Shown one piece after another: positions 381 through 60,245 of a DNA stretch of 64,000 nucleotides. This stretch comes from Bolinopsis microptera. Its lineage: Eukaryota > Ctenophora > Tentaculata > Lobata > Bolinopsidae. The first letter of the stretch is position 1. Each line of letters begins with the position of its first letter. The DNA lies in assembly GCF_026151205.1 (NCBI RefSeq), contig NC_087081.1:925386-989385 (forward strand), given 5' to 3'. The notes under the pieces are model-generated. The model was not told where the DNA came from. It saw nothing but the letters and a program-made list of their open reading frames with translations, and ran no database searches. Both the position numbers and the translations under genes were made by a program.

Positions 381-587
381 TTTTAATACTTTCAACACTA
401 CTATATAACAAATAATTTGAGGTATGGCACGTGTTGAAAGTATGTCGTGGCAATAAGTTGAAAAGCGATACACACACAAGCGATACACAGTTACTAGAGG
501 AGTGTTCTATCCTTGATAGCCCTCTTCCCCTTCAAACCAAAACTATCAAAGGGTATCTGACCCATAAGTCAGAACTCTTCCGGTGGG

Positions 588-2003: not shown

Positions 2004-2062
2004 GCTGTCTGAAATTCTTCCTTTTCAATCCATGGTCACTTGTTAACAAAGTAAACGATATT

Positions 2063-6907: not shown

Positions 6908-8484
6908 TTTTTAATTTACCCTAATTCAGAATTTTAATATTCCATTGTTTAATTAATTTTTGACACATGACAAAGTAATACTAAATTATGTAACTATAAT
7001 TTTAATTTATGATGATAGTTAAAACCGAATTTTAAACAATATAAAATGTATATGGGATATTAAAAATTTTGTTGAATGTTGGTTAACAATATTTATTTAA
7101 AAATAGTAACGCCGCGCAATGCGTTTGTTTGTTCTTCCCGAAACTCTAAAAATATTGTTAGGAAAAATTGATTGCTATACGAAACATTTCTATCCCACGT
7201 TTCGAGCTTGTTCAAGACAACGTAAGATGAAATGTACTTATCTTTACCTGTCACATCCCAATTACCACCAAACTTTGTGAATACTTTAAAATTTTGTAGG
7301 CTGACATGAAGTTGTCATGTTGGAGCTGATCCGATGCAAACTGCAATGGGCTTTACCGGTGTAATGAGTTAACGATATTTCACGATTAGAGTATTACAAA
7401 TTTCGACAGTATCCTTCCTTCTAAAGTATAAAATGTAGCTAAGTTTGGTGTTTTCCTACATGAAATCCCTTCGACATCTCTGATTCAATAGGTACAATTT
7501 TTGTAGGTGACTAAAATCATAGAAATTTTTGAGGTTTCTCCTAGCATTTTAATCACGTTTTACATTTTGATTCTTCCTTACTCTCCCTGTGTGGCTCTTA
7601 AAGTTATAAATTGCTTGCAACGTTGTTGGTTGACCTGTAACTATCATAATTGAGCAAATATTCTTGTATGTTTATTTTAAATGTGTAAGATGTAATAGTA
7701 CAGAAAAAGCAAAGAAGATCAAGAGAGTAGTAAAAAATGGAGCGGCACCAAGAAGCTCACTGCCAGGCAAAGAGACATCTATCTACTTTACCAAAGACAG
7801 AAAAGATCTTGGAACGTCCAGGCAGACAACAGAGAGAGGGAGAGAGAAGTAACACTCCTGTCACCCAAGGAGGACAGTGGGTGTTGTTGGTTAAGTTCAG
7901 GTCTAAACTTACCCAGTACTAGAAGTCTTGTAAGAAGATGATGATGAAGAAAAAGATCTCTAGTCTAGTGATGCAAGAAGATAAATGCCCTTCCTGGAAT
8001 TCCCTCAGCATACCTACATAACTTTTAAGGTCACAATTGTTTTGATTTCCTCTGCTCTTAGTTCTTACTACATAGTTAAGCTGCAACTATCATATTTTAG
8101 CAGACATGATGTACACTTGTGCTGAAGATTGCATATATATATAAATATATTGTTAGTCAGCGTAAACTGTCAGTAAAACAACGCCTTGACTTCAAATGTC
8201 GGTTAAATGTACCTTTACTGTCATCCTCAAATTATTTGTTATATAATAGTAGTGTTGAAAGTATATATTTATGGGAATGGGCATCTCCACTACTAGTACT
8301 GGGAACGCCTGGTCGATCTATTTCTAATGTCTCTTCAACGAAGGCAGGAGCGATTCATCATTCTCCATATGTGGAAAATCCTCCATGGAAAGACCAGGAA
8401 TGATCTGAACGTTCTATTTGTTTCACGCCCAGGCTTGGAAACCTTGCAATAATTCCATCAAAACTAGAACCAGTTCAATTCTTC
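6908..8484. repeat. Right arm of the large inverted repeat
   Basis: Uninterrupted partner of 1–380 plus 5074–6270. Near its outer end (about 8338–8452, plus strand) it reads RRQERFIILHMWKILHG and so on, a piece of a LINE RT C-terminus. At 8484 this sense fragment meets the antisense LINE fragment of 8485–9264, giving two LINE remnants joined 3' end to 3' end. Confidence 0.9.
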
Positions 8485-12854: not shown

Positions 12855-13330
12855 TTAAAAACGATGGCGGATATGAGCCATGGCTCATGTCCGCCATCGT
12901 TTTTTTTGCGATTCAATATTAAAATGGAAAATTTAATTTGACGTCGGTTTTTTTCCGAGTCAATTAAAAAACGATGGCGGACATGAGCCATGACATTCCG
13001 ATTCAATATTAAAATGGAAAATGATTTGACGTCGGTTTTTTTTTAAATCGAAAAAAAAAACGATGGCGGATATGAGCCATGACATTCCGATTCAATATTA
13101 AAATGGAAAATGATTTGACGTCGGTTTTTTTTAAATCGAAAAAAAACGATGGCGGATATGAGCCATGACATTCCGATTCAATATTAAAATGGAAAATGAT
13201 TTGACGTCGGTTTTTTTTAATCGAAAAAAAAACGATGGCGGATATGAGCCATGGCTCATGTCCGCCATCGTTTTTTTTTCGATTCAATGTTTTTCGAATC
13301 GAAAAAAAAAACGATGGCGGACATAAGCCA
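12855..13330. repeat. About 75–80 bp tandem repeat bounded by perfect palindromes
   Basis: About five units each carry CGATGGCGGAYATGAGCCAT, then an AT-rich middle with TTTGACGTCGG and poly-T/poly-A edges. At both outer ends (about 12861–12902 and 13231–13272) the motif occurs back to back with its reverse complement, giving perfect hairpins centred on GAGCCATGGCTC. The same motif forms the last codons of the adjoining retroelement ORF at about 13284–13335. Confidence 0.9.
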
Positions 13331-16163
13331 CCATAGGAGTGGCTTCTTGTGGTAAAGGTTCGGTCTCCGCTTGATGTACTTCTATAGACGAAGTATCAAT
13401 TTCGTCGTTAACTGCTGAAGTAGATGTTGAGACTCCGTCTTCTTCTGAGTCTGAATTATACACGCTCTCGTATAACTGTGTCTTCTTCTTTGAGGAGTTT
13501 CTTTTCTCTCCCTCACTCTCATGAGAGTCATGAGCCTTTGTCTCTGGGTGAGGTCTTTGCTCTTTCTCTGGTTCTTCATCAGTAGGTGAGCTCTCTCCAT
13601 TTATCATCTCGTCAGCTCTTTTCTTTAGCACTATCTTGCAGGGGTTAACACGGATTAGGGCTCCTCCGTGTTTAATCAGCACCGAATTGGCTAACTGACC
13701 AACTACATACCCAGGACCAAGGAAAGTTTTGTCTTTCTTGTAGTATACTTGATCTCCTGCAGTGTACTTAGCGTTATTGGACTCATATACTCGTTCACGA
13801 AGCACTCTTTTTAACTTTGCAGAATTCTCCAATTCTATAAATTTCTTCCGGGCTGTTTCCATAGCATACAGGTTCTCTGCCACTATTTTACTAGCTGTGG
13901 TCCCGTTTAGTACAGGTAGATTTTCATATTCTAGCACTGATGGTACTGAAGGGGTCCTCCCAAAAACCAGCTGATACGGTGAAAAACCGAATACGTTATT
14001 TAATGAGTTCTTCGCATTACATGCCCAGGCAATAGCAATCTCGATGTTACAGTTTTGTTCTTCAAGTATAGCATTAACCATCCCAGATAGCAGAGAGTGA
14101 TGTCTTTCGATCATACCATTGCACCAAGGTGAAGATGCAGGTGAGGTTTTAAAGTTAATTGAGCACATTGAGCACATCTCAAGAAAGTCATCATTTACAA
14201 ACTCTCCTCCATTATCACTCATCAAGGTGTTCATTCTCCCGAAGATTGAGATCCAGTGATTGAAGGTCTTTGTCATTATTTCTTTTCCAGTCTTTGTCTT
14301 TAACGGAGCTGCCACAGTAAATCTGGTCACAGTATCTATATAATGAACAATCCAAATTCCGTTATCTAGCTTCTTCAAGTCTACCGCTACAACATCGTTA
14401 AATGTGTTTCCGCTAGGGATAGCAACTTTACGGTGGGGCTTCTCACGTGACTTGTATTTCATGCACCAGTCGCAAGATTTTTCACATATTTCAAGTTCTT
14501 TAATTACCTCAGTAACATTGGGAATCTTTGTCGTCTTTATCCATTCTCCGATCTTTGTGGTAGAACCATGAGCAAAATATCTATGGAGATGATTAGCTGT
14601 TTTCTTTGAGTCGTTTATATCCACTAAAAAAGCAGTCTCTTCTTTTACTGAAGATACTGTGTCTTCACTCCTTCCAATAGACACTACTAGATGCCCTGAT
14701 TGAGTATCTAAAATGTGTTCTTCTCCTCCCATTGCAAAGACTTTCTTCTGCCACATGTCTATAACGAAACGAAATTCATTCATCGTTTGTCTTGATAGTA
14801 ACAACGGTATTTCACTATCTACTACGTAAGTTTTTAGAGTGATGTTTCTTCCGAACATTTTTACTGGTAGCGAAACCAGCTGAGTAGATTTGACTCTGTT
14901 TCCGTCTCCAAAACGGAACGTTGTTTCGCAATGTTCACTTTTTATCTTCATAGTCTCTTCTGGCGATAATGATTCTTCATAGATCCTCAACCATTGTTTT
15001 CCACAGACAGTAGAACTTGCCCCTGTATCCAGTAGGGCTTTATTCACCGTTTCTCCGATGAAAAATGTGTATCTTTCGTCTCTCTCTGGGAGAGCAACTT
15101 CAGATTCCAATTGTATTACATTTGTTAAGAACGTTAATCTTTTGTTATCTTCTTTCTTCTTGGCATTGAACGTGTTATAGGGACACCCAATTACTCTATG
15201 TTCTGGCGATCCACATATTAGACAGGTTGTTTTCTTGAAATTCTCTGCCTTATTCATAAAACCTTCTCTCTGATAGTAGTTTGGACTTTGTCTTTGGTAG
15301 GATTGTCCAGTAGGTCTTTGTCTTTGGAACGGCTCTGTAGAGTTGGGTCTTTGGTAGGATTTCTCTTCTGGTCTTTGTGTATTTCTTACCTTTTGGTACT
15401 TACCACCTTGGAAATACAGAACATTCTCTTCATCTTCTTGTTCTCCGTCACTTGTACTGCTATGCTGGTTTCTTTTGTCACTACCAGACGAACAATATCC
15501 ACTTCTGTCACTTGCTGAGCTGCTGCTGTGGTAAGAATCTTTTGTATAAAATACTGGTTCTTCTTTGATTTTTAGACCACTAGAGCTAGCTTCCGAGAAG
15601 TAAGGATTTGTGCTCTTCCCCTGATCATTGCTTGAACTGGATATTATTCCAGAACCATCTCCAAACGTACGTTTTAGAGCTTTCACCATGCCATCATACG
15701 TCAGTGTTTCTGTTGTTGCTCGTATGAGTCTTTTCTGTTCTGATGTTAGGCTTGCTTGGTGAAGTAACTTGAAGACCTTGATCCCGTCTTCATAAGCATC
15801 TTTGTCTTCTCGAAGAGACTTCAGTCGTTTGTATCTCTGTTCGAACCCTCTGATGTAATCATCAATACTATCTTCTTTAGAGCGATTGTACTGCTCAAAT
15901 TCTTCGATAGCTTGAAACAAGCTTTGTGTGTCATCTTTCAAGAAGAGTTTGTCCAACTCACTTGTCAGCTTCGCTACAGTTCCAAGTTCTGCAGGTAGAA
16001 TCTGTATAGCTGCTTCGTGAGCTTTTCCAGACATAAATCCAATCAATCTGGCCGCCTGTTGTGCTTCTTTAGCTTGAGTTCCAAGTACCCATATATTGAC
16101 TTCTTTCTTCCATAGACCATAATCTGTCGCATCATTCAATACTGGTATTCTTTCACTACCCAT
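13284..16163 (-). CDS. Copia-like retroelement gag–protease–integrase polyprotein, reverse transcriptase missing
   Basis: A single 959-codon frame encodes an LTR-retroelement polyprotein in copia order. The gag region covers about residues 1–310. A CCHC zinc knuckle (CLICGSPEHRVIGC, ~312) follows, then an aspartic protease with LLDTGASS (~376). The integrase has an N-terminal His/Cys region (HRYFAH … CDWCMKY) and catalytic acidic residues in AVDLKKL (~591), MSDNGGEF (~646) and GMIERHH (~683). A GPGYVVGQ … RVNPCKIV module comes before an acidic, Ser-rich tail. The last ~15 residues come from the neighbouring palindromic repeat. Full copia elements continue with reverse transcriptase and RNase H. 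None is seen, so the copy is 3'-truncated and would depend on another element for reverse transcription. Confidence 0.88.
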   Translation of the reverse strand: MGSERIPVLNDATDYGLWKKEVNIWVLGTQAKEAQQAARLIGFMSGKAHEAAIQILPAELGTVAKLTSELDKLFLKDDTQSLFQAIEEFEQYNRSKEDSIDDYIRGFEQRYKRLKSLREDKDAYEDGIKVFKLLHQASLTSEQKRLIRATTETLTYDGMVKALKRTFGDGSGIISSSSNDQGKSTNPYFSEASSSGLKIKEEPVFYTKDSYHSSSSASDRSGYCSSGSDKRNQHSSTSDGEQEDEENVLYFQGGKYQKVRNTQRPEEKSYQRPNSTEPFQRQRPTGQSYQRQSPNYYQREGFMNKAENFKKTTCLICGSPEHRVIGCPYNTFNAKKKEDNKRLTFLTNVIQLESEVALPERDERYTFFIGETVNKALLDTGASSTVCGKQWLRIYEESLSPEETMKIKSEHCETTFRFGDGNRVKSTQLVSLPVKMFGRNITLKTYVVDSEIPLLLSRQTMNEFRFVIDMWQKKVFAMGGEEHILDTQSGHLVVSIGRSEDTVSSVKEETAFLVDINDSKKTANHLHRYFAHGSTTKIGEWIKTTKIPNVTEVIKELEICEKSCDWCMKYKSREKPHRKVAIPSGNTFNDVVAVDLKKLDNGIWIVHYIDTVTRFTVAAPLKTKTGKEIMTKTFNHWISIFGRMNTLMSDNGGEFVNDDFLEMCSMCSINFKTSPASSPWCNGMIERHHSLLSGMVNAILEEQNCNIEIAIAWACNAKNSLNNVFGFSPYQLVFGRTPSVPSVLEYENLPVLNGTTASKIVAENLYAMETARKKFIELENSAKLKRVLRERVYESNNAKYTAGDQVYYKKDKTFLGPGYVVGQLANSVLIKHGGALIRVNPCKIVLKKRADEMINGESSPTDEEPEKEQRPHPETKAHDSHESEGEKRNSSKKKTQLYESVYNSDSEEDGVSTSTSAVNDEIDTSSIEVHQAETEPLPQEATPMVAYVRHRFFFRFEKH

Positions 16164-16281
16164 CTTTACTTTACTTTAAATCTTTACTTTAAACTTTACT
16201 TTTCTTTTACACTTTACTTTACTTTTAACACTTTACTTTACTTTTACACTTTACTTTTCTTTGACTCCTGATGGTTTTCTT
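16164..16281 (-). other. Leader between primer-binding site and gag
   Basis: About 120 bp of low-complexity leader built from ACTTTACTTT-type repeats on the plus strand (AAAGTAAAG on the coding strand). No coding signal is seen. Confidence 0.6.
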
Positions 16282-17545: not shown

Positions 17546-18644
17546 TAATTGGATCCAATTAGAGGAGCTGCGCAATTATCGCAGCATCCAGCATCTCGAT
17601 CTGGTATCACCTTCTGAAACACAGCAGGCAGCTGGGCCAGAGAATTTAAAATAAAAGGATTTTTTGTTAATATTGAAAATCGAAGCGAAAATCATGTGAC
17701 CCTATGTTTCCTAGGACGCCGAACACGATAAAACTGGTTATAATTATCATACTCAAGGGCAAATTGCTTTAAAATGCACTTGAATGTCATAGATATCATC
17801 AAGTAATCCTACACTACTCAACATTCCTTGTCAGGGTGTCCTAAACATTCCTCATATATTTTCTTAAATATGTGACGGAGTAAACCTGGGCGCACCATTT
17901 AACGAAAAAAGTCGTCAAATATGTAGGTAATAGTCATATGTACCCATCCTATCATCTGGACACTTGAAAATTTGGTCAAACACAGCAGCAAGGGGTCCAT
18001 ATTTACTCCGTCACATGTTTATAGTGTGACAAAGTAATAATTTCCGTGCAGGCCGTATTCAGGCGATATCTCATCACCTGATCAGGACATCGTTATGTGA
18101 CAAAGTTTGCCTAGGGGATGAGACGATTATCCTAACCATCAAGGGTTTAAATAATTTCATAGTGTGACAAAGTCAACTATACGCTGTGTCTTTTAATAGG
18201 GCCACTAATATTGACCAATATCCTCAAACTCAAATGAACATGTCCATATATCAGTATTGGTCTTCACTCTCAATGACCGCACCAATAAGTCTCTGGTCAA
18301 AAATACAGTCAAAATGCCTTTTGGTCAAAGAAATTACGACAGAAAAGCTCCTCTTCACAAATCGTCCAAAAATATCTTTTTATATATGATGATTTTCCGT
18401 TTATCCAAGCTTTCTTTGGGAATAGAACTTTGAGTACCTCAATCGTGTCTTGTGCCGTCCTCAGTTACCTTGTAATATGGTCATTCAATAAAAATTGAGT
18501 CAAAACATTGAAATTTGGGTCGCGGAAAGCTGAAATTCTAATATTTTTTTTATCTCAACTCTTATTTTACTTCGGACATTCCAACAGCCACATTGTTACA
18601 CAAGTGTGTAACCAGCCAATTACAGGAAGCCGAAGGATTCAATT
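17546..18644. other. Non-coding stretch with small inverted repeats
   Basis: GTGACGGAGTAAA (about 17872) and its complement TTTACTCCGTCAC (about 18002) form a loose 145-bp inverted repeat. The motif GTGACAAAGT recurs several times to 18175. No gene is supported. Confidence 0.5.
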
Positions 18645-18912
18645 ATACATTAGGCCAGTGACGGTTAAGGTAGTGTGTACCATACTTTCTTCGCCCGAGA
18701 CTTTGCTGCAATGGGCAGCTCCTCATTTAACCCTCACACCCGATTTCTCGAGTATTTGGCTGAGTGGACCGGGGGGCTGCATAGACCACTCAGGATCCTT
18801 AGCTGAGCGTCGACGACGCTCACCCCACGGCTAGTGGCAGAGTCGGGAATCGAACCTGGTACCTCAAGCAATACCAGGCCCGGATTAACCAACTGAGCCA
18901 CTAAGCCAGTCC
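18645..18912 (-). mobile_element. tRNA-derived SINE
   Basis: On the minus strand the head (18912–18835) is tRNA-like. It has an A box TGGCTCAGTTGG (complement at 18889–18900) and a B box GGTTCGATTCC (complement at about 18845–18856) at normal internal-promoter spacing, preceded by GGCTTAG. The anticodon arm does not fold as a functional tRNA. A GC-rich body follows for at least 190 bp. Both flanks lack an obvious target duplication, so the 3' end is approximate. Confidence 0.75.
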
Positions 18913-19273
18913 TACCGGTTGTATCAAAGTTTTCTCCGGATATACTGCTTCCAGTACCTTGATGGCGACTAATGTCACTCTTACTGACCTCACTGATTGG
19001 TCACTGGTAAAAATGTCAGTCAAAACCGCAAAATTTCGGTCAAGGGGACGGCAAAAAAGCTTTATTTTTCTTATACTTTAGAGATAAATGATTTTCCCAA
19101 TTTTATTTTGCACTGCTGCTGTTTGAAAAGGAAATAGAAAGGAACTTTGCTTTATAAATTTTAGCTACAGTTCCACTCTACCTAATTTAAGGTATCAACC
19201 TTTCATTTAAAAATCCTTTTTAATGTGCCAATTTGACTTGTTCACTCTCTAACTTTGATTAGGCCCCGCCCCC

Positions 19274-22200
19274 ATGGGTTCCGGAATGCGATATGACCCG
19301 GTACCTTTGGGAATCAAATGCTTCAAGCATGCTACTGGTCCTTCCCCTCCTCGCAACATTGTGTAAGTGTTTCGTTTAAGATGATTTTAACACTAATGGA
19401 GCTTTTCAAACGTTTCAGAACAGCAATTTCAATGAAATTTTGTTTTTTAGGATTGCATCCAATTTAAAAATTTAATTGAGTTATAAAACACTCTCCATAA
19501 CTTTCAAATGTTGATATCATATGTTAAATGAATTGAATTGAATGTGTCATGTATCAACATTTTAAGTCGTAAATATATAGCTTTTTTTTCAGGTACAAAT
19601 GCTGGATTTTGGCACTAACTTTCTTTGTATATATGTCCTATCACATGAACAGAAAGAGTCTAGGAGTTGGTAAATAACGTTTTCTTTTTGGTTATATTTT
19701 CGAGGCTATGATTTGAAGTTTCTGTTTAGTAATATAACGTTTAAACACATTTGCTCACATCACTCTCAGTCAGATTCTTTGAGGTTTACAACTTGGATAA
19801 CAACTGTTTTTAAATTGTTTACGGTATCTAACTTTGAGTAAATAAACAAATATCAGTGAATAATTTTGATATTAAAAATTAATAGAAACAATATATCTCT
19901 ATCTGGAGGGGGATTTGTTTAAAACATAAAAGTGATACGAAAAGTTGTTTTAGCAGTCCGAGCTTTCAAAATGCATGTGTAAATCGTGATCAGCTATATT
20001 TATATGTTGTGAAATTCAAACTAGACAGTCAACCTCCTTATCACGTTTTCAGTATCTTATCTATTGAACACACATTATGTACAATGTATGAAATTCGATC
20101 TGAATCGTAAAATTCCAACTCAAATTACTTTACTTGTCCCGTGATTTTCCGTATTAATTCTGTCTTACAAAATAATTCTCATGTTTCACCGCTATCAAGT
20201 TTGCCGGTACCGGACAGATGTGTGAGAAGAAATAGAATGTAAAATGGCACTTTGATACGCGCTTATTATATCAGTAATGAAAATTGAAATTAAGATTACT
20301 GATCTTGATTTTCAGGGCGACTGCGTATTAAAATAGTACACAAAATAAATACTCAACACACAAATTCATATGGTTAGCGGGGACTGGAGTTCATTTAAAG
20401 AAACAATGTCTTAAGAAAGTAGCCATACATGAAATGTCCTGCTAGGCTTAGATTCAGACATTTACCAGTAAAATATTCGAATTGATATTGAAGAGTATGT
20501 ATATAGACTCGAAGTACTTCATTTACTATGGACTATGGAGGCCTTAATGTGCGAGGGATATGACCACAAATAATTTTAAAATGTATACAACTTTCCATTA
20601 TCAATCCTTCAATCATTTCTTGACTGTAATTGAATCATGACTAGAATTCTCCAACTACTACACTGATGACACTCTACAATTGGCTTGTTCCAGCCAGTTT
20701 CCAACCTCAAATAACCCTATCACAGTTACATTATAAATGTAACAGAACTTTCTAGATTTAATCTAGGGTTTAAAACCTTTACTCTCTTTGTGTATTGGTC
20801 GTGTAAATTTAAATTAAATTATTGTTCTAATTCTAATATTAGGACGCAATGAAACTACCGGACCACGATGTATGGGGACTTGCCACCCCATGGCAACATT
20901 AAAATATATCTGTTACATCGTTTCCTCAAATTATTTGTTATATAGTAGTGTTGAAAGTATTAATATATCATCCACATTCCACACTAAATCTACCCCGCAG
21001 TGAAGTCAACGTTACACGGCGGGAACTGCAGTGATAACACGACTTCAGAAGGCTGGGCCCCATTTAACGGTACAGATGGTACAGAGCTACTTGGTTACTT
21101 AGATACTGCATTCCTGCTTAGTTACGCTATCTTCATATTCGCGTGGTAAGTTTTAGGAAACTTCAAACACAAGGAAACATTACATTTTCCTCCGTTCTTC
21201 ATGTAATAATACATTGAATTTATGTCCTTTTTCGCCAGAAGTAATTTACAGTTTAGAAAATCAAGATCGGTATTAAGTTTACAGTTTAGAAAATTTCAGT
21301 CTAGAAAATGTACACAAATACTAAAATTCCGATGTCCGTGGTGCTTTTTATGGGCCCAAATGTATAGAGCAATACTACAGAGATACGAGACTGTGCATAA
21401 TGTACATGCTTTAATAAAGTACAGGGTGTACCACAGAAAGTGTGACTTTTTTGAGAAATGATACAAAATATTATGAAGGAGCAGTTGCTAAAAACTCTTC
21501 ATCACATTGTGTCAATATATATCGAATTTATGCATACCAAGTTTCAAGTCCCTATCAATTGTTTTTTCTCACAAATTGCTATACTGTTATTATATATGGT
21601 GCTACCTCAGGAACTTAAGCTTGCTGTTATTAAGTTGCTTTTGGTCCTATCAAAATATTTTGTTCCTAGCCGAAGTTATCGCTTGTCAAAGGTCAGCGGT
21701 CATGAGTAATTGTATTGCGCAAACGATTTTCTATCACGCACGCGTAGTAACTTTTAAAATAAATTTTAGGGATCATTTAGAAGAGATTGTCCGGGCAGAA
21801 TTTTGAGGAAGGTCTCAAAAACGTTTTTATTAGATTTTTAAAATCTTGGACCTCAGCCATAAATAATGACAATTTCAGTCTATAATATTTATTTTTGGGA
21901 AGGGTGGCTTTTTTTGGAAAGATGCTTTACTATTAACCATATTTTTTATTATTTTTATCAATTCAACTATATTTGAACTGACAAAATTTAGTTAAAAATA
22001 CCCGTGAAGTTTAATTTTGTCAAAAACTATTAAAGTCATAAAGTGGAAGAAAGTCACACTTTATGCGGTACACCCTGTATATTATATACAATCTATATAT
22101 AATAGTTGTTCTTGATTATTTATTGTTTGATTGTTTCAGTGGTTCTATTGCCGATACTATCAGTCTACGATACTTCCTGACTGTTGGAATGATAGGTATG

Positions 22201-25200
22201 TAATGAAAAATCCGGATTGAAATATTGTTTATGAGTCGCATGGTTGCAATGTATTCTTACTAGGATAGTTCAGTAATGCTTACAGTTATTTACTTCCGAT
22301 ATCAGTAAATTGAATGCCCAAACATGACCCAGTGGTCACTGGTTAATGGTAATAATTTGACAATTCAAACCTGGACTTATTCTTGAATGTTGTCATGTTA
22401 TTCATGTTTAATGAATGATATTCCAAATTAAGTACAAATATTGGGGTACTCCGCGACTAGTTACTAGATTCAGTTATGGAAATTATATCTTATTGTTTTT
22501 AGATTACACATTACTCAGCATTGTACTCTACATTCCAGGTACCAGTATCTTCATGACGCTAATGGGAATGGCACGGTATTTCGAGATACACTCTCTAGCC
22601 TACTTTGTAATTATGCAGGTAAAAACCATTTTCAATATTCCTTATTTCACTGAGTAAATATGAGTGATTGTTGGGGGCTAGCTGTTCAACTGGCACTGAA
22701 TCTTTATTCTGAAAAGGACCTGAATCTGAAAGTTAAGTTTCTCTTTTATGACACGTAACCAATTAGGTTGCAGTGAACAGGCAACGTTACGCCACTGCTT
22801 AGCCTCATTATAGAGTTGGTGATTGCTAGCGAATCATTAGTGTATCACTACATACTATGAAATGACCAACTTATTGTAGGTATGAAGTTATTGTCTTAAA
22901 CCAATCGTGGCCTTGATTATTAATCATAAAACCGTTTCACTTTTTCAGATAATAATCGGAGCGTTTCAAGCGACTGGTTGGCCAGCAGTTGTGGCAGTTA
23001 TTGGTAACTGGGTCGGCAAAGGAAGGTGAGATATCGGTTTTGTTGTGAAATGGGAGATCACTTATCAATGGTGCAACTTGTGACCTCATTGCAATTTGCA
23101 GGAGTCATGGGGCTACCAGCCTACGCTCCATTTTTCTGCACTCGTGGCTAAATTTTAACGTCGCGCGCCATCGCCAAACGTATTTTATGTGATATACACT
23201 GCGCGCACGGACGTTTTTCGAAGCGCGCGCGAAAACTGTACTTCGCTTCTGCGAAACGACTGGACCAAACAACAACGCTGACTTCATAAATTAGCACCAC
23301 GCGTGAACCGTAAATTAGTGATCTTCCTACACTCACCCTCCCAAAAATTTTACAAATTAGATGAGTGACTCACCATGACCCACGAAGCAAATGTGAGCGG
23401 TCCTTAACTTGTGCTGGAAGGAGATTGTGATGATTTTGTATCATGTCGTAACGTTACCATTAGTCGGATAAGGGGACACTGGAACAGATTACTTTTTAGA
23501 TTACACCTGACAAGTCCACCAGCTTCTAATCAACAGTCTTGGAATAATATCATGTTTACATTCTAGTTTGTGACATTTCCCACCTCTGATTGTATATCAA
23601 TGAGAGCAACCAATTTGAGATTTAATTGTTTCCCGACGACAAATGAGAGATCATTTACATGTCAGAAAGTGAATACAACAGAAATTAAATAGCAAACCAG
23701 TGACTTTTCAATAAGACGTTAGCCCACGTGTTCAAGGTGTAAAAGTCTTCAATATTTAGGATAAAGTTATATCTCTTAAATTGTTCATTTCATCTCCATC
23801 TTGTCATAACATCTTGTTTTCAAATCAAAATTTGTCTTTTCTTCAAACGAACCCATCTCTTGATCCTCATCTCAAAAAGAAACAATTTAACATCATCTTG
23901 GCCATCTCAATAAAGCACGATGTCAAGCTCCGAAGTTCGAACTTTTATCGTTTGTTTTCCTTCACTCACCACGCCCCCAGAAATCGCAAAACCAACCCAA
24001 CGACTAACACAAAACTCCCCTGCAATCGGCTCACGCCACTCATTGTATTAGGTCGATATAAGGCCTCTGCACTCCTAGGAAATTGGTCGCACCTGAGTCC
24101 TTCGGTGGCGCGGGGATCGCTGGTCAGTCCCTGAACTTGTGGTAGCACTTCGTCACAACCAAACTCGTATGGAAAACAGTCCCAGTAGTTCACCTCTAAA
24201 GAGAACGATTTTAAGTATTATACTGCCAATAGTCAATACTACAATTTCTAATAATGAGACGAATAATCTGAAAGTATAAATGTCCCAAAAAAGAGCAGTT
24301 TCCTTTGGTCGCATAAACGGAATTATCAGACATTTTGGCAACTAGAACGAACACCGATGCAACATTAAGACAACAATAAGACAAAAATAAGAGAACATTG
24401 GTGTTTGTTGCGTTAATGTTGTCTTAATGTTGTCTTATTGTTGTCTTATTGTTGTCTTAATGTTGTCTTAATGTTGCATCGGTGTTCGTTCTAGTTCCCG
24501 ACATTTTAAACTCTAAGTATCACAACATTTTGAAGTTTGAACTCTAAACATCACAACAATGCAACTTATCCGGATATTACACGTTAAAGTTACTTACTGA
24601 CAAAAGGGTCGTGGTAGGAGTAGAGTTCTTATCCGGATATTACACGTTAAAGTTACTTACTGACAAAAGGCCAAAGGGTCGTGGTAGGAGTATATTGTTC
24701 TTATCCGGATATTACATGTTAAAGTTACTTACTGACAAAAGGGTCGTGGTAGGAGTAGAGGTGTTCTTATCCGGATATTACACGTTAAAGTTACTTACTG
24801 ACAAAAGGGTCGTGGTAGGAGTAGAGGCTCATAAATATTGTTCTTATCCGGATATTACACGTTAAAGTTACTTACTGACAAAAGGGTCGTGGTAGGAGTA
24901 GAGGTGTTCTTATCCGGATATTACACGTTAAAGTTACTTACTGACAAAAGGGTCGTGGTAGGAGTATATTGTTCTTATCCGGATATTACACGTTAAAGTT
25001 ACTTACTGACAAAAGGGTCGTGGTAGGAGTATTGTTCTTATCCGGATATTACACGTTAAAGTTACTTACTGACAAAAGGGTCGTGGTAGGAGTAGAGGTG
25101 TTCTTATCCGGATATTACACGTTAAAGTTACTTACTGACAAAAGGGTCGTGGTAGGAGTATTGTTCTTATCCGGATATTACACGTTAAAGTTACTTACTG

Positions 25201-28200
25201 ACAAAAGGGTCGTGGTAGGAGTATTGTTCTTATCCGGATATTACACGTTAAAGTTACTTACTGACAAAAGGGTCGTGGTAGGAGTAGAGGTGTTCTTATC
25301 CGGATATTACACGTTAAAGTTACTTACTGACAAAAGGGTCGTGGTAGGAGTAGAGGTGTTCTTATCCGGATATTACACGTTAAAGTTACTTACTGACAAA
25401 AGGGTCGTGGTAGGAGTATATTGTTCTTATCCGGATATTACACGTTAAAGTTACTTACTGACAAAAGGGTCGTGGTAGGAGTAGAGGTGTTCTTATCCGG
25501 ATATTACACGTTAAAGTTACTTACTGACAAAAGGGTCGTGGTAGGAGTAGAGGTGTTCTTATCCGGATATTACACGTTAAAGTTACTTACTGACAAAAGG
25601 GTCGTGGTAGGAGTAGAGGTGTTCTTATCCGGATATTACACGTTAAAGTTACTTACTGACAAAAGGGTCGTGGTAGGAGTAGAGGTGTTCTTATCCGGAT
25701 ATTACACGTTAAAGTTACTTACTGACAAAAGGGTCGTGGTAGGAGTATTGTTCTTATCCGGATATTACACGTTAAAGTTACTTACTGACAAAAGGGTCGT
25801 GGTAGGAGTAGAGGTGTTCTTATCCGGATATTACACGTTAAAGTTACTTACTGACAAAAGGGTCGTGGTAGGAGTAGAGGTGTTCTTATCCGGATATTAC
25901 ACGTTAAAGTTACTTACTGACAAAAGGGTCGTGGTAGGAGTATTGTTCTTATCCGGATATTACACGTTAAAGTTACTTACTGACAAAAGGGTCGTGGTAG
26001 GAGTAGAGGTGTTCTTATCCGGATATTACACGTTAAAGTTACTTACTGACAAAAGGGTCGTGGTAGGAGTAGTGTTCTTATCCGGATATTACACGTTAAA
26101 GTTACTTACTGACAAAAGGGTCGTGGTAGGAGTAGAGGTGTTCTTATCCGGATATTACACGTTAAAGTTACTTACTGACAAAAGGGTCGTGGTAGGAGTA
26201 GAGGTGTTCTTATCCGGATATTACACGTTAAAGTTACTTACTGACAAAAGGGTCGTGGTAGGAGTAGAGGTGTTCTTATCCGGATATTACACGTTAAAGT
26301 TACTTACTGACAAAAGGGTCGTGGTAGGAGTAGAGGTGTTCTTATCCGGATATTACACGTTAAAGTTACTTACTGACAAAAGGGTCGTGGTAGGAGTAGA
26401 GGTGTTCTTATCCGGATATTACACGTTAAAGTTACTTACTGACAAAAGGGTCGTGGTAGGAGTAGAGGTGTTCTTATCCGGATATTACACGTTAAAGTTA
26501 CTTACTGACAAAAGGGTCGTGGTAGGAGTAGAGGTGTTCTTATCCGGATATTACACGTTAAAGTTACTTACTGACAAAAGGGTCGTGGTAGGAGTAGAGG
26601 TGTTCTTATCCGGATATTACACGTTAAAGTTACTTACTGACAAAAGGGTCGTGGTAGGAGTAGAGGTGTTCTTATCCGGATATTACACGTTAAAGTTACT
26701 TACTGACAAAAGGGTCGTGGTAGGAGTAGAGGTGTTCTTATCCGGATATTACACGTTAAAGTTACTTACTGACAAAAGGGTCGTGGTAGGAGTAGAGGTG
26801 TTCTTATCCGGATATTACACGTTAAAGTTACTTACTGACAAAAGGGTCGTGGTAGGAGTAGAGGTGTTCTTATCCGGATATTACACGTTAAAGTTACTTA
26901 CTGACAAAAGGGTCGTGGTAGGAGTAGAGGTGTTCTTATCCGGATATTACACGTTAAAGTTACTTACTGACAAAAGGGTCGTGGTAGGAGTAGAGGTGTT
27001 CTTATCCGGATATTACACGTTAAAGTTACTTACTGACAAAAGGGTCGTGGTAGGAGTAGAGGTGTTCTTATCCGGATATTACACGTTAAAGTTACTTACT
27101 GACAAAAGGGTCGTGGTAGGAGTAGAGGTGTTCTTATCCGGATATTACACGTTAAAGTTACTTACTGACAAAAGGGTCGTGGTAGGAGTAGAGGTGTTCT
27201 TATCCGGATATTACACGTTAAAGTTACTTACTGACAAAAGGGTCGTGGTAGGAGTAGAGGTGTTCTTATCCGGATATTACACGTTAAGTTACTTACTGAC
27301 AAAAGGGTCGTGGTAGAGTAGAGGTGTTCTTATCCGGATATTACACGTTAAAGTTACTTACTGACAAAAGGGTCGTGGTAGGAGTAAGTGTCTTATCCGG
27401 ATATTACACGTTAAAGTTACTTACTGACAAAAGGGTCGTGGTAGGAGTAGAGGTGTTCTTATCCGGATATTACACGTTAAAGTTACTTACTGACAAAAGG
27501 GTCGTGGTAGGAGTAGAGGTGTTCTTATCCGGATATTACACGTTAAAGTTACTTACTGACAAAAGGGTCGTGGTAGGAGTAGAGGTGTTCTTATCCGGAT
27601 ATTACACGTTAAAGTTACTTACTGACAAAAGGGTCGTGGTAGGAGTAGAGGTGTTCTTATCCGGATATTACACGTTAAAGTTACTTACTGACAAAAGGGT
27701 CGTGGTAGGAGTAGAGGTGTTCTTATCCGGATATTACACGTTAAAGTTACTTACTGACAAAAGGGTCGTGGTAGGAGTAGAGGTGTTCTTATCCGGATAT
27801 TACACGTTAAAGTTACTTACTGACAAAAGGGTCGTGGTAGGAGTAGATATCCGGATATTACACGTTAAAGTTACTTACTGACAAAAGGGTCGTGGTAGGA
27901 GTAGAGGTGTTCTTATCCGGATATTACACGTTAAAGTTACTTACTGACAAAAGGGTCGTGGTAGGAGTAGAGGTGTTCTTATCCGGATATTACACGTTAA
28001 AGTTACTTACTGACAAAAGGGTCGTGGTAGGAGTAGAGGTGTTCTTATCCGGATATTACACGTTAAAGTTACTTACTGACAAAAGGTCGTGGAGAGTAGT
28101 TTTACAATACTTAAGTTACTTACTGACAAAAGCGTGAGGATAAGTTTACCAATACAGTAAAGTACTTACTACAAAAGGCGGTAGTAATGTTCTTATCGTA

Positions 28201-31200
28201 TTACACTTAAATTTACGACAAAAGGTCGGGTAGGATATCTTCCGATATTACACTTAAATTACTTACGACAAGGGTCGGGATAAGGTTTCTATCGTATTAC
28301 TAAATTACTAGACAAAGGTCTGGTAGATAATGTCTTATCCATATTAACTAAATATTCTACAAGTCGAAGAATTTCTTACCGATATAATTAAGTTATACCA
28401 AAAGTCTGTGGGTGGTTCTTACCGAATTCACTAAAGTTCTACGACAAAGGTCGTGGGTAGTGTTCTTACCGGTATACACTTAAGTTACTTACTGAAAAAG
28501 CGGAGAGTAGTTTCTATCATATAGTTAATTCTTACGACAAAAGGTCGTGTAGAGTAATGTTCTTACGATATTACTTAAAGTAACTTACTGACAAAAGGGT
28601 CGTGGTAGGAGTAGAGGTGTTCTTATCCGGATATTACACGTTAAAGTTACTTACTGACAAAAGGGTCGTGGTAGGAGTAAGGTGTTCTTATCCGGATATT
28701 ACACGTTAAAGTTACTTACTGACAAAAGGGTCGTGGTAGGAGTAGAGGTGTTCTTATCCGGATATTACACGTTAAAGTTACTTACTGACAAAAGGGTCGT
28801 GGTAGGAGTAGAGGTGTTCTTATCCGGATATTACACGTTAAAGTTACTTACTGACAAAAGGGTCGTGGTAGGAGTAGAGGTGTTCTTATCCGGATATTAC
28901 ACGTTAAAGTTACTTACTGACAAAAGGGTCGTGGTAGGAGTAGAGGTGTTCTTATCCGGATATTACACGTTAAAGTTACTTACTGACAAAAGGGTCGTGG
29001 TAGGAGTAGAGGTGTTCTTATCCGGATATTACACGTTAAAGTTACTTACTGACAAAAGGGTCGTGGTAGGAGTAGAGGTGTTCTTATCCGGATATTACAC
29101 GTTAAAGTTACTTACTGACAAAAGGGTCGTGGTAGGAGTAGAGGTGTTCTTATCCGGATATTACACGTTAAAGTTACTTACTGACAAAAGGGTCGTGGTA
29201 GGAGTAGAGGTGTTCTTATCCGGATATTACACGTTAAAGTTACTTACTGACAAAAGGGTCGTGGTAGGAGTAGAGGTGTTCTTATCCGGATATTACACGT
29301 TAAAGTTACTTACTGACAAAAGGGTCGTGGTAGGAGTAGAGGTGTTCTTATCCGGATATTACACGTTAAAGTTACTTACTGACAAAAGGGTCGTGGTAGG
29401 AGTAGAGGTGTTCTTATCCGGATATTACACGTTAAAGTTACTTACTGACAAAAGGGTCGTGGTAGGAGTAGAGGTGTTCTTATCCGGATATTACACGTTA
29501 AAGTTACTTACTGACAAAAGGGTCGTGGTAGGAGTAGAGGTGTTCTTATCCGGATATTACACGTTAAAGTTACTTACTGACAAAAGGGTCGTGGTAGGAG
29601 TAGAGGTGTTCTTATCCGGATATTACACGTTAAAGTTACTTACTGACAAAAGGGTCGTGGTAGGAGTAGAGGTGTTCTTATCCGGATATTACACGTTAAA
29701 GTTACTTACTGACAAAAGGGTCGTGGTAGGAGTATTGTTCTTATCCGGATATTACACGTTAAAGTTACTTACTGACAAAAGGGTCGTGGTAGGAGTAGAG
29801 GTGTTCTTATCCGGATATTACACGTTAAAGTTACTTACTGACAAAAGGGTCGTGGTAGGAGTAGAGGTGTTCTTATCCGGATATTACACGTTAAAGTTAC
29901 TTACTGACAAAAGGGTCGTGGTAGGAGTAGAGGTGTTCTTATCCGGATATTACACGTTAAAGTTACTTACTGACAAAAGGGTCGTGGTAGGAGTAGAGGT
30001 GTTCTTATCCGGATATTACACGTTAAAGTTACTTACTGACAAAAGGGTCGTGGTAGGAGTAGGTGTTCTTATCCGGATATTACACGTTAAAGTTACTTAC
30101 TGACAAAAGGGTCGTGGTAGGAGTATTGTTCTTATCCGGATATTACACGTTAAAGTTACTTACTGACAAAAGGGTCGTGGTAGGAGTAGAGGTGTTCTTA
30201 TCCGGATATTACACGTTAAAGTTACTTACTGACAAAAGGGTCGTGGTAGGAGTAGAGGTGTTCTTATCCGGATATTACACGTTAAAGTTACTTACTGACA
30301 AAAGGGTCGTGGTAGGAGTAGAGGTGTTCTTATCCGGATATTACACGTTAAAGTTACTTACTGACAAAAGGGTCGTGGTAGGAGTAGAGGTGTTCTTATC
30401 CGGATATTACACGTTAAAGTTACTTACTGACAAAAGGGTCGTGGTAGGAGTATTGTTCTTATCCGGATATTACACGTTAAAGTTACTTACTGACAAAAGG
30501 GTCGTGGTAGGAGTATTGTTCTTATCCGGATATTACACGTTAAAGTTACTTACTGACAAAAGGGTCGTGGTAGGAGTAGAGGTGTTCTTATCCGGATATT
30601 ACATGTTAAAGTTACTTACTGACAAAAGGGTCGTGGTAGGAGTAGAGGTGTTCTTATCCGGATATTACACGTTAAAGTTACTTACTGACAAAAGGGTCGT
30701 GGTAGGAGTAGAGGTGTTCTTATCCGGATATTACACGTTAAAGTTACTTACTGACAAAAGGGTCGTGGTAGGAGTAGAGGTGTTCTTATCCGGATATTAC
30801 ACGTTAAAGTTACTTACTGACAAAAGGGTCGTGGTAGGAGTAGAGGTGTTCTTATCCGGATATTACACGTTAAAGTTACTTACTGACAAAAGGGTTGTGG
30901 TAGGAGTAGAGTTCTTATCCGGATATTACATGTTAAAGTTACTTACTGACAAAAGGGTCGTGGTAGGAGTAGAGGTGTTCTTATCCGGATATTACACGTT
31001 AAAGTTACTTACTGACAAAAGGGTCGTGGTAGGAGTAGAGGTGTTCTTATCCGGATATTACACGTTAAAGTTACTTACTGACAAAAGGGTCGTGGTAGGA
31101 GTAGAGGTGTTCTTATCCGGATATTACACGTTAAAGTTACTTACTGACAAAAGGGTCGTGGTAGGAGTAGAGGTGTTCTTATCCGGATATTACACGTTAA

Positions 31201-34200
31201 AGTTACTTACTGACAAAAGGGTCGTGGTAGGAGTAGAGGCTCATAAATATTGTTCTTATCCGGATATTACACGTTAAAGTTACTTACTGACAAAAGGGTC
31301 GTGGTAGGAGTAGAGGCTCATAAATATTGTTCTTATCCGGATATTACACGTTAAAGTTACTTACTGACAAAAGGGTCGTGGTAGGAGTAGAGGCTCATAA
31401 ATATTGTTCTTATCCGGATATTACACGTTAAAGTTACTTACTGACAAAAGGGTCGTGGTAGGAGTAGAGGCTCATAAATATTGTTCTTATCCGGATATTA
31501 CACGTTAAAGTTACTTACTGACAAAAGGGTCGTGGTAGGAGTATTGTTCTTATCCGGATATTACATGTTAAAGTTACTTACTGACAAAAGGGTCGTGGTA
31601 GGAGTAGAGGCTCATAAATATTGTTCTTATCCGGATATTACACGTTAAAGTTACTTACTGACAAAAGGGTCGTGGTAGGAGTAGAGGCCGACCTGGCTAA
31701 CGTTCTCTGTCAGCGTAAAGTTGAAGATAAACTGATAGCAGCGGTGGGTCATCCTGTCACATGGTAACCTCTTGTACAACTCACACTGCGATATCTGAGG
31801 GGGTCCAGGTTACTACTATGAAATTTTTAGAGTCAAAATTTTGGGGCCAATTTCCAAACTAGTTCTGGCAGAAACATTCTTCACAGTTATCACTCAGGAT
31901 GTTGCAGCACAATATTTTAAATTTTGAGGATTGTGTGACATTTTTGATATCTGGACTGGTTGTAACATAAATTTAATCGATTAGCAAAGGAAATGAGTGG
32001 AAAATATAGTGGAGTGCTCTTTCATAAATGTTTTTATAGACATTTAAAACCGTTTCAATGTATCGTGAACACCCTGTAAGTTACCTGCCAAGTAACCAGG
32101 TTATTTGGCAAAGTCATGAATCTGGGAAATTCCCAATACTCAAGAATGTGACAGGAATGTCTGATATGAACAATCTATGTCACGTGTGGAAGTAAAAATA
32201 TATGAGTTTTTAAAAATGTTGCTGAGTTGAGTTTGATTCTTCCCAACCGGCGGTTGTCACTGGCCACGATTGTTTACCGCAAAAGAGTGATTTCAGTCTT
32301 TTGTCTGGGGTGTTTTATTTATGGGGTGTTTTATTTTTTTGGAAAATCTGGTTGAAACTTAATAGACCCTACCTCTGGTACAGTTACATTCTCCTTGTCC
32401 ACAACTAAGTCGATACACCTATAGCATTCCATGTCAGACCAGACAATCATTGTTATTGTAGCAAGAAGTAACGCTAGCCTGGGACTCGTGAAGCCTCTCA
32501 TCTTGCTTATATTCGAGGGAAACCTTGATGATATTAGTTGGGTGATTGTTGGGGGTAAGACGGTAATGATACAGCCCCAGTGGTGTTAGGCAGGGTATAA
32601 ATCAAGTGTAGAGATGATAATTAGGTAAAATTTGGAATGGAAGCTGAAGTTCAGACTCCAGTGCACGCAGAAAAGTTCGAAGTGTAAAATAAAGAGTTCA
32701 AACTGTTATGAAAAATATGGAAAGTATGTGACTCGGTACTGAAGGAGACTGCGATGTGTGTCCTCGGAAAGTGAACAAAACTAAAAAGAACAATAAGGAA
32801 TGAGGTGACTGGTGGTGTTCTAAACTGTAACATTGTGTTGGACGCCACGGAGCCACAACAATATGAACACGCTAATTATATTTCATATTACCCTTCAGAA
32901 TTCAAAGCACGCCTAATATTAGTGTGCAGGAATTTAAAAAAGTAAAAACCAAATAAATTAACTACGATAAATAAGACTATAAAAGTGTTGGAACGAACAT
33001 TGCATCATGTCAAACAATACTAGTATCTTGTGATATTTAAAAAGTTTGTATTTTTGTCTGATTTTTAATATAGACTTGCAGTTTGATTATTAATATTATA
33101 TAATACTAGAAAGCCCGTGGTCACAGGGAGGGAAGTTGCAGTTTTATTGCATCAAAAATATCCATCACAACCGAAGACACAGCCGATTAAAATGTATCTC
33201 GCACTGAATGAGTGAACACAACGGAATTACCACAAAATGACGTTAACACAATCATTGTACGTGCACTTGCACGTTTCAACACTGTTACTATGGTTACTAC
33301 GCAACTTCCTATTCCTCGTATGATTTACACGTGAGCGGTCGTGCAAACAAATTATAATAGAGACTAGAAAGCCCGTGATCGCAGGGAGGAATGTAATAGT
33401 ATTCTTTGGTAGTCATTTTTTATAGCATCAAAAAATATCCGTCACAACCGAGTATACAGCCCATTAAAATGTAGCTCGCACTGAACACAACGTAATTACC
33501 ACAAAACCGATAAAAAATGACGTTAAAACAATCATTACACGTGCATGTGCGCGTTTCAACACCGTTACCATGGTAACTATGCAACTTCTATTTCTCATCT
33601 GATTTGCACGTAGGCGGTCGTGCAGACAAAGATAATTCTTTGAGTTACAAGTAAGACTAGAAAGCCCGGAAAGCCCGTGATCACAGGGAGGAAGATAATA
33701 TTAGTTTTTATCGCATCAAAAAATATCTGTCACAACCGAAGATACAGCCAATTATTATATAGCTCGCACTGAACACAACGTAATTACCACAAAACCGATC
33801 AAAATGTCGCTCGCAAATCTTTGCACGTGCGCGTTCAACGCTGTTACCATGGTTACTTTGCAACTATTACTTACAACCTATTTCTCATCTAATTTGCACG
33901 TGGACAGTCGTGCAAACAGAAATAATTCTTTGAATTATAATATTGATGATGTCTCCTATAATGACCAGTATAAGTAGCGACGAATCGTATTCGCCAGAAC
34001 ATAGAACAGGGTGTACTGCATAAAATGTGACTTTTTTGTATACAGTCGCTACACGATTATAATTTCATTGTAAGATTTCGAAGAATGCCTAATCACAAAT
34101 TCCATGTTATTTAAATTCACAATCAACATAACAAATTTCCATATCAATCACGTTTTTTTAACAATAAAACAAAGAAGAAGAATATTTAAAATAAAAGGTT

Positions 34201-37200
34201 TGGCAGGCGGCAGGGCATTAGTAATTGGGCGTGATTTGTAGAATTTACCGCGCAGATAAGCTCAACAACATTACTAGACGGTGTATGGAAGAGAGCAATC
34301 AAGTAATTTGCTTGTATTACTATCCTACTACTACTATATAATACTATATATAGTAGTATATAATATATACTACAGTGTACTGTACTACTATAAAGTCTGT
34401 GAACAAAGAAACCCCTTAAAGTCGTGTACTGCTTATAACATAAGGAGATTTTATGATGATTATATTATTGTAATACAAGGATAGCAGAAGGGTTCGCCCA
34501 TCTGTATACTGTATAGTGTATAGTCATATTAGTAATAAGAAAGTAAGAGCTGGTGTTCAATTCTAGAGAACAATTATAATTCTGAATTTATAGGACGCAT
34601 TCGACACGGAAACGCACGCACAAAGCGAAGAATGCACTAGTAGTTACCTAAAGATGTATTATTGTCAAAGTACTTATCACCTTAGCTGTAAGAGCACTGA
34701 AAATATTATAAGCATGCAATGTTAAATCATGATCTCTCGATCAGTGGCATAAGTATTACAGAAAAAGCAAAATGTGTAACTGCATATTAAAAAAACTTGT
34801 AGATAAAGACAAAATATGCGGATAATATAAAGCAGATTGGGTGGATAAATTTGAATAGGAAGGATAGTCTCTAGTCGGTTAGGCGAGGAGAACTTAGGAA
34901 CTATTCAGCAAATTCTATAATAGATCGTTCATTTGTAAATCGATTTGGTTTTCAACTGTTAGAGGAAACTCTGCTGTGCAGAAATTGAAAGCATCGACAT
35001 AAAAGCTGAAAACACGCAGAACTGCCAGCCCTGTGCCGTGCATGATACAGTACTAAACCTTCAGTCAGGAGAGGGCACATGTCATGATCGTTCAATATTC
35101 ATCAGTCAGCGTGAGCTACAAAGTAGGATATATTAAGATATTACAGTTATACAGGGTATATACAGATTACATATTGATACAGCTACAGTATCAAATGCCT
35201 CCTACAAGCAGTGACCAGTCTTCATGATTAATTCTGCCCTGCTCCAGTAAGGCGTAATGTTTATACATATGAGCAGTGAGCTCAAGTAGGGTGAAATCTA
35301 CATCACAATATTCTCTACTGAATCATGCAATGTCCGACCAAGGGTGGCAAGGCCCCGTTAGCTATTATTCCGCTCCAACTTCCTAAGCTTTAAACCGTCT
35401 GGTTTTAGCCTGATGTAATTGTCGACACTCTTGGTAATCTACTCCTTTACATTCACTCTCTTACTACTGCACGGCTCCCATTGCTCCCAGGTAAACAGGT
35501 AACCAGGTAACCAGGTAACCAGGTAACCAGGTAACCAGGTAACCAGGTAACCAGGTAACCAGGTAACCAGGTGCAAAAGCGAGTATATACTTTAAACTAC
35601 AGATTAGAGTTGAGGTAATTAATTAGCATTACAAGGTCTTTGGCTCATTAAATATAATGTATATCGTCTCGCTTTATATATAGTAAGATTTAGTAGTGGC
35701 ACGGGTGTTTAAATTAATTAGAACCACTAAAAACGCAGCCTCTAATTTCCTACGAAATTATGGTTATTGGGACTAATTACCAAGTAAATCTTTTTGCCAA
35801 AGTTCATGAGTATGAAATGAAATGAGGTATTTATATCCAGACTATATGATTAACCAACAACACAAGGGAGGTGGTTAACCATGTCAGAGCGGCTGACTGT
35901 GAGTGCCGTGAGCAAATGTGTATATGTGATCAAAGGTATATTACTCATAAGATAAAGATAAAATTAAAACATGTTTTATTGTAAACCACACTAATATAAG
36001 TGACAGCAGAAACCGTATAATTTATTGTAGGTAAAAATAAAAGGTGGTACAGTGACATATCAATAAAGACAAAAAACTGATCCTAGTAAGGAAAACGTAA
36101 ATTATAAAATGGTAGCAGCGACTCAGCGAGGCAAAAAACACAAACAGCAATCAAGCGGTGGACATTTCCTACACTTTGCACAGCTGTGTCAATTAATCAG
36201 TTCATTGGATACGCCGATACAAATTATTAGTGTAATTAGCGAATTATGATAATTATGTCGCCGCACAGTAAATACCCCCTGTGTATTGCACCGAATTCGC
36301 TCAATAACATTTACTAGCACTATTCGAAGCGTGCTTAAATTTTAAGTTTAACTTATTTAATCTTAATGGGCGCTTTATTCCTTGTAGACTTATTCATATA
36401 TTGTAGACTTACATTAAAACATTGCAGTGTTTTTAAAGAATGTGATTAATGTCACGAATAATTGTTATTCACATTAATCACATAATTATTATCAATTTCT
36501 GCGCCACATGATCAACGAACAATTCAGAATTACAAAATTAAATGGATATGTGAAAGATTTGTCCCATTTTTTCAAAAGGGCGTTAATACATCTTATATTA
36601 AAATTATACTTCTAGATGGGATAAAAACCACAAAGATGTGCAAATCTAACAGTTAACACCTAGAAATATGCTGTCAATACGATTACATTGAAAATCTTAT
36701 TTCGAATAAAATAGTTCTCAAGAAAATGTCTATTTGCAGTTGCTTGTCTACAGTCTACACTCTACAGGAGCATGTTTTAATATATTATTATTAAATTCCT
36801 CCCTAACAAGGCATGTATTTTCAGTCGAGGTCTGATAATGGGTATATGGAACTCTCACACCTCTGTAGGAAACATCCTGGGTGGTCTGATAGCGGGGGCT
36901 GAGTCTAACTCGTTGAATACCTGGTTTGTTACTTAGTTTCTTCTTTGTCTCGCATCACTGCGTCGTAAAATAAGGGTAGATAAATTCGTAGTCACGTAGT
37001 GACCATACGAATTAGAAGTGACCCTACTGTTGCCAAGAAATATAGTTTTAAAAAGTTTTAATTAAGACCAAAGGACTCTAGCAGTGGCTTAATTAGAGCG
37101 CGGGAGTTCGTTCGTGGTTTGACGTCCCTTCACGATCGGACACCATGCTGCAATATTGTGTCTAATTCTTTTCCTGTTAGATTTTAGTCCTATGGTTCTA

Positions 37201-54380: not shown

Positions 54381-54778
54381 ACAACCAAAATAGTTCATGA
54401 TAACCATCTCCTCACGTTATCATTCTCCAAACCAGAATAGTTCATGATAACCATCTCCTCACGTTATCATTCTCCAAACCAGAATAGTTCATGATAACCA
54501 TCTCCTCACGTTATCATTCTCCAAACAACCAGAATAGTTCATGATAACCATCTCCTCACGTTATCATTCTCCAAACTTAACCAGAATAGTTCATGATAAC
54601 CATCTCCTCACGTTATCATTCTCCAAACAACCAGAATAGTTCATGATAACCATCTCCTCACGTTATCATTCTCCAAACAACCAGAATAGTTCATGATAAC
54701 CATCTCCTCACGTTATCATTCTCCAAACAACCAGAATAGTTCATGATAACCATCTCCTCACGTTATCATTCTCCAAAC
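54381..54778. repeat. About 52-bp tandem repeat downstream of paralogue 3
   Basis: About eight units of AATAGTTCATGATAACCATC + TCCTCACGTTATCATTCTCC. They differ mainly at the junction (CAAACC, CAAACAACC, CAAACTTAACC). Near-identity shows recent expansion. Confidence 0.92.
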
Positions 54779-60172: not shown

Positions 60173-60245
60173 AACCTCCGGCGGGACTCGAACCCACAGT
60201 CCCCGGCTTAGGAGGCCGATGCCTTAGCCATTAGGCCACGGAGGC
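60173..60245 (-). tRNA. tRNA-Arg (anticodon CCT)
   Basis: A 73-nt cloverleaf on the minus strand. Acceptor GCCTCCG pairs with CGGAGGT (one G·T). The A box is TGGCCTAATGG and the B box GGTTCGAGTCC. The anticodon loop CTCCTAA (anticodon CCT) sits in a CGGC/GCCG stem. There is no intron. It reads AGG codons. It lies head-to-head with a near-identical copy 171 bp away, differing by one base in the variable region (GGGGACTG against GGGGATTG). Confidence 0.96.

Follow-up and report, generated by a model that had tools for sequence, protein, structure and literature searches.

A probable mirage-type minisatellite across a predicted exon-intron boundary in the ctenophore Bolinopsis microptera

In a 64,000-nucleotide window of the genome of the ctenophore Bolinopsis microptera (assembly GCF_026151205.1, contig NC_087081.1, here C10, positions 925,386 to 989,385), a small predicted secreted-protein gene carries a minisatellite array of about 111 units, each of which repeats the end of exon 2, the donor splice site and the beginning of intron 2. 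The array fits the class of "mirages", that is, minisatellites spanning exon-intron boundaries, a class that is already known. Most probably, this is a recent, neutral minisatellite of the mirage type that was born in one of two recent paralogues and is spliced from the first donor. The coordinates below are those of the window unless a contig is named.

Make-up of the array and its single-copy paralogue

The array, the predicted exons and the duplicated block in which they lie are as follows.

24565-31687, minus strand: tandem array of about 111 units across the exon 2/intron 2 boundary, the first unit being the gene's own boundary (Tandem Repeats Finder (TRF) and unit splitting)
24565-24597, minus strand: 33 intron bases belonging to the last unit, beyond which the intron becomes single-copy at GGATAAG|TTGCATTG, the same junction that the paralogue has (comparison with the paralogue)
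28034-28611, minus strand: noisy stretch within the array; when aligned as 12 units, it shows 214 deletions, 1 mismatch and 0 insertions (alignment to units)
32373-32501, minus strand: coding part of predicted exon 1, with a signal-like start and CYRC; it is open in frame, has the donor GAG|GTAGGG and is unchanged in the paralogue
31659-31794, minus strand: predicted exon 2, the last 29 bases of which are the exonic part of the first unit; acceptor CCCCCTCAG, donor TCA|GTAAGT, phase fitting exon 3; identical in the paralogue
23966-24195, minus strand: predicted exon 3 with the stop codon and a hydrophobic C-terminal end; acceptor TTCTCTTTAG, in frame
17793-33684, no strand assigned: duplicated block, the other copy of which lies at C10:908800-917785, about 25 kb before it on the same contig (sequence comparison)

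TRF reports a period of 66 bp, 107.9 copies and 91% matches. Splitting the array yields about 111 units, mostly of 66 bp, namely, 99 clean unit cores and 12 units in the noisy stretch, the latter number being the best fit when this stretch was aligned against 7 to 12 units. Read on the minus strand, the 66-bp unit comprises 29 bases from the end of predicted exon 2 (the exon end being CCTCTACTCCTACCACGACCCTTTTGTCA), 33 intron bases that include the donor side GTAAGTAAC, and the filler AACA. In the 77-bp unit, AACA is replaced by AACAATATTTATGAG; the commonest 63-bp unit (10 of the 14 spacings of 63 bp) contains AACAATA and lacks CCTCTA. Apart from the noisy stretch, 97 unit spacings were counted: 66 bp in 69 cases, 63 bp in 14, 77 bp in 6 and 65 bp in 5, with one each of 64, 58 and 72 bp. 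The types are directly seen to be mixed at the edges: 77 bp accounts for five of the first six spacings beside exon 2 and occurs once more near the far end, whereas the centre consists almost entirely of 66-bp units. Across 50 bp, 92 of the 99 clean cores are identical; TCAGTAAGT is present in exact form 103 times, always in one orientation, and GTAAGT is present 105 times.

A search with the unit over 264.65 Mb of the genome, in which only the best candidates were scored, gave 102 matches, of which the array accounts for 101 and the paralogue for the remaining one; within that scope, the unit is not a dispersed satellite. A 13-base core, GTCAGTAAGTAAC, had 115 matches compared to 3 for the control; among the matches listed are six places outside the array, on C1, C2, C4 and C7, and about 8 would be expected from base count alone. 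An earlier note on this DNA, made from the sequence alone, had described the array as serial repeats of an exon end with its donor, the gene's own predicted donor being first in the series. This description holds, but the lengths of 28 exon and about 35 intron bases given there give way to 29 and 33 plus filler.

The other copy of the duplicated block provides the single-copy state. The pieces of the block up to window position 33104 are 93.6-98.2% identical between the copies, and those beyond it match more weakly (92.0% at best). The paralogous gene (C10:915117-916571), 41 kb away and about 95% identical, has the same three exons and a single unit, so that intron 2 spans 406 bp there versus 7463 bp in the array gene. 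The filler of the units is not present in intron 2 of this paralogue. A templated origin of the filler was rejected, the best match of the filler region to the flanks being 10 bases long, inside the range obtained with shuffled sequence. The introns of the two genes differ by 1.5-1.8% (16/946 aligned bases), compared to no differences among the 265 bases of exons 1 and 2 (p=0.03), and two of the six coding differences (6/495 bases) are nonsynonymous (p=0.04). The identity of exons 1 and 2 and the paucity of nonsynonymous changes are weak evidence that the gene is constrained.

We infer the growth mechanism, the recency and the neutrality of the array from these observations. A tandem duplication across the exon 2/intron 2 boundary, with 14-15 bases of filler at the junction, would have struck one of the two recent paralogues, and the array would have grown later by unequal exchange or slippage. 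Deletions of 11 and 14 bases around the filler would then have produced the 66-bp and the commonest 63-bp types, respectively, with subsequent spread of the 66-bp type. If the first donor, which gives the shortest exon, is used in splicing, the array is intronic throughout, and its growth would have lengthened intron 2 from about 0.4 to about 7.5 kb.

The other copy of the block contains a small array of its own, a 68-bp unit present 3.1 times at C10:910869-911079, a case of minisatellite birth in that copy; at the window counterpart (about 20319-20481), no array was listed by TRF.

Relation to mirages and other boundary repeats

The earlier note knew of no named repeat class that is defined in this way; amphioxus mirages are such a class, as described in two papers (PMC3087553, PMC3902484). 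Ebner et al. 2010 (PMC3087553) present amphioxus mirages for which the Adh3 data and their own RT-PCR suggest undisturbed regular splicing, point out that many mirage units hold splice signals that are potential cryptic sites, and refer to instability of mirages, in length and somatically; the PGBD5 paper (PMC3902484) adds troponin C and PGBD5. The Bolinopsis array shares with the amphioxus cases covered by these papers (Adh3, BflGb6, BflGb9, troponin C and PGBD5) a unit that spans a boundary, here one of predicted exons, and a position adjoining the gene's own boundary, and it shares with BflGb6 a homogenised interior with deviant edge units. As regards instability, the paralogue has one unit compared to about 111 here, a contrast between two genes of one genome rather than between individuals. 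The cases differ in scale: the amphioxus globin example has units of 150-160 bp, 6 in one haplotype and 3 in another, and PGBD5 reaches up to 7 units, whereas the ctenophore array consists of about 111 units, mostly of 66 bp. Regular splicing is reported for amphioxus mirages and is a probable outcome in the ctenophore array.

Boundary repeats are also described from human segmental duplications by De Grassi and Ciccarelli 2009 (PMC2812944). These internal tandem repeats, with units of 30 bp present four times on average, likewise differ in copy number between recent paralogues and lie at exon-intron boundaries; they are associated with alternative splicing and novel introns, whereas here an existing intron was enlarged. 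The Rogers-type gain of introns by tandem duplication, with ATP2A1 and the potato RdRp as examples (PMC4974935), similarly involves a tandem duplication over a splice signal. No new intron is evident here, as the intron is already present in the single-copy paralogue.

The literature consulted applies the name mirage to a single group of animals, amphioxus, and relative to it both the host group and the array size are new. A search for boundary-spanning arrays in ctenophores found none by title among the 15 papers listed out of 401, and a further search brought up one paper, a review of repeat-derived RNAs; most subscription papers being outside these searches, this does not prove absence. That several such arrays occur in a ctenophore (see below) suggests that minisatellites spanning boundaries can originate in lineages far apart, perhaps wherever minisatellites abound. 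The two paralogues also offer a natural comparison within the same nucleus, between a gene with a single donor and a near-identical one with about 111 equal donors. Iso-Seq data for B. microptera exist (PMC10232365) and could reveal whether the donor nearest to the acceptor is always taken.

Donor choice and competing explanations

Scored with a consensus table, the donor of exon 2 reaches 74.4 and that of exon 1 reaches 81.7, and the local sequence is alike across all donors of the series. The exon 2-exon 3 join reads GTC A|AG GTG, and the three exons together give an open frame of 164 amino acids; from any later donor, by comparison, the frame would run into GTC AGT AAG TAA, so that the protein would stop after DPFVSK, before exon 3. 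A pyrimidine-rich stretch ending in CAG lies over the donor in every unit, which makes the use of units as acceptors conceivable; this would likewise bring a stop. Exon definition favours the donor closest to the exon 2 acceptor, and the first donor is probably the one used in splicing. The amphioxus reports make such use likelier than production of the truncated form, while the human survey calls for caution.

The earlier note suggested that the array may affect donor choice, U1 binding or the transcription of both the nested gene and SLC37. The donor series could, alternatively, be functional, with serial U1 sites as regulators of processing; they might, for instance, shield the long intron, hold the RNA back or bring about a switch to the DPFVSK form without exon 3. 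The uniformity of the donors in orientation and sequence (103 exact copies, 92 of 99 cores identical) and the single, defined truncated protein that later donors would yield speak for this idea, as does the reported capacity of boundary repeats to change splicing in human paralogues (PMC2812944). Still, recent growth explains the uniform units as well, the paralogue manages without an array, amphioxus mirages are reported to be spliced regularly (PMC3087553), and donor-bearing arrays make up 10 clusters in the part of the genome listed, where a single shuffled word makes up 7; we therefore regard a functional series as improbable. Hardly more credible to us is the broader proposal that mirages are a recurrent route of intron growth in ctenophores, independent of amphioxus, and that about 110 identical donors here yield a second, truncated secreted form that is impossible for the paralogue. 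The plus strand of the array could instead encode a repetitive protein, given that it contains long open frames in which a 22-residue repeat stays open for up to 639 amino acids. Yet, 82.7% of shuffled units and 374 of the 469 66-mers of the window are similarly open in at least one of the six frames when repeated, and the 77-, 65-, 64- and 58-bp units break the frame. Plus-strand coding was dropped as trivial, as most shuffled units are open when repeated, and its probability is practically nil.

Two further alternatives concern the history and the reality of the array. It could predate the gene duplication, with the paralogue having contracted to a single unit: an exchange between the first and the last unit predicts exactly the observed single-copy sequence. 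This course of events, which requires complete loss of the array, appears unlikely, and the 92 identical cores suggest recent growth, though homogenisation could have the same effect. Far less plausible is an assembly artefact, whether by wrong expansion or by two alleles set in tandem. The 578-bp noisy stretch inside the otherwise clean array gives some grounds for it, with its 214 deletions in 12 units against 1 mismatch and no insertions, as does the construction of the assembly with wtdbg, gap closing by TGS-Gapcloser and polishing by Pilon (PMC10232365). This deletion-only pattern is unlike the usual decay of repeats, so the stretch is probably unpolished consensus. The array itself is real, as the unit variants are distinct and ordered at both of its ends. 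Also against an artefact, both gene copies lie on one contig, the matching block ends on both sides within the compared stretches, and no 3' exon of the surrounding SLC37 gene is seen after the second copy.

Several points weigh against a recent neutral mirage spliced from its first donor. The exons and donors are all predictions from the sequence; the predicted protein has no recognisable relative other than its paralogue. Two further GT sites within exon 2 reach slightly higher scores than the assumed donor (76.2 and 75.5), so that the latter is not singled out by its strength and was chosen on account of the open frame with exon 3 alone. The human boundary repeats are reported to change splicing (PMC2812944). 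When all coding bases are taken together (6/495), divergence between the paralogues is no lower than in the introns (16/946; p=0.65). The single unit of the paralogue could be a collapsed array, which is conceivable given the outcome of an exchange between the end units; the single-copy state may be ancestral or result from full collapse. The length of the array is unreliable as well, because the unpolished stretch lies in its centre.

Other arrays, the host gene and the wider window

The genome is rich in minisatellites: 154 kb of C10 contain 14 arrays that have a period of 20-200 bp and three or more copies. A search for two MAGGTAAGT words 21-51 bases apart gave 1172 matches, compared to 8 for the reversed control, 219 for a shuffled word and 468 for the reverse of the shuffled word. 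The excess is large only over the first of these controls and amounts to 5.4-fold and 2.5-fold over the others. Among the matches listed, counting clusters by hand on C1 and on C2 up to 21.87 Mb gave 10 for the donor word and 7 for the shuffled word (p=0.63), or 4 and 2 when at least three listed matches were required. The claim of a genome-wide preference of arrays for splice sites was therefore dropped, and boundary-spanning arrays may be the chance share of a high birth rate of minisatellites. Nine of the ten listed donor clusters were inspected, with exons again predicted, and two of the nine are clearly exon-born:

C1:428250-430927: mirage-like array in which a Sushi-like exon (Pfam E=0.0026; 18.6 bits, the cut-off being 20.7) runs into a 54-bp unit with 44 successive donors (43 matches of the word pair)
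C2:1765850-1766100: mirage-like array, an open exon at the end of which three exact donors follow one another at spacings of 41 and 61 bases

Among the remaining clusters, one is plausible, two show an array edge without a visible exon, and four begin beyond the stretch read. The window arrays at 54381-54778 and 50051-50158, read by eye, contain no donor-spanning unit. The latter (minus strand) is a tandem duplication of 53 bp lying within an open exon that appears discoidin-like by eye; 53 not being a multiple of three, it shifts the frame unless spliced around.

The earlier note had called the host gene Ly6-like. Proteins of the Ly6/uPAR family have a signal peptide, a CxxC start and a hydrophobic C-terminal tail. 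In the 164-residue translation, a signal-like start, a CxxC start and a hydrophobic C-terminal end can be discerned by eye, with no predictor behind these readings. Comparison of this protein with Pfam (best hit DUF7044, E=0.33), with the Protein Data Bank (PDB; best E=1.1) and with a protein collection (none of 75 candidates at E 0.1 or better) found no similar protein, which leaves the Ly6 label unsupported; the CxxC start and the tail are a resemblance only. The same note's placement of the gene within SLC37 is borne out, with exon pieces of that gene on both sides:

19573-36920, plus strand: SLC37 gene, partial reading by eye, with pieces near 19.6, 21.0-21.1, 22.1, 22.5, 22.9-23.0 and 36.8 kb

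The joined plus-strand pieces match MFS_1 (E=2e-18) and SLC37A2 (E=3.3e-40), and the array gene occupies, in antisense orientation, the SLC37 intron between the pieces near 22.9-23.0 and 36.8 kb.

Elsewhere in the window, a LINE-like element with a reverse transcriptase (561-4876, plus strand) and a copia-like polyprotein frame (13284-16175, minus strand) were named by eye from their translations, and a 381-bp inverted repeat (1-381 and 8104-8484, 99.7% identical) flanks the LINE-like element. An RNA family search of the window detected two tRNA genes only, both away from the array, at 60173-60245 (minus strand) and 60417-60489 (plus strand), in opposite directions and with equal scores. A search of the assembly for COX1 gave no match. 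A berovin query gave 61 photoprotein matches, most of them 85-91% identical, on C1, C2, C3, C5, C9, C10 and C13, many in intronless tandem clusters with a spacing of about 1 kb.

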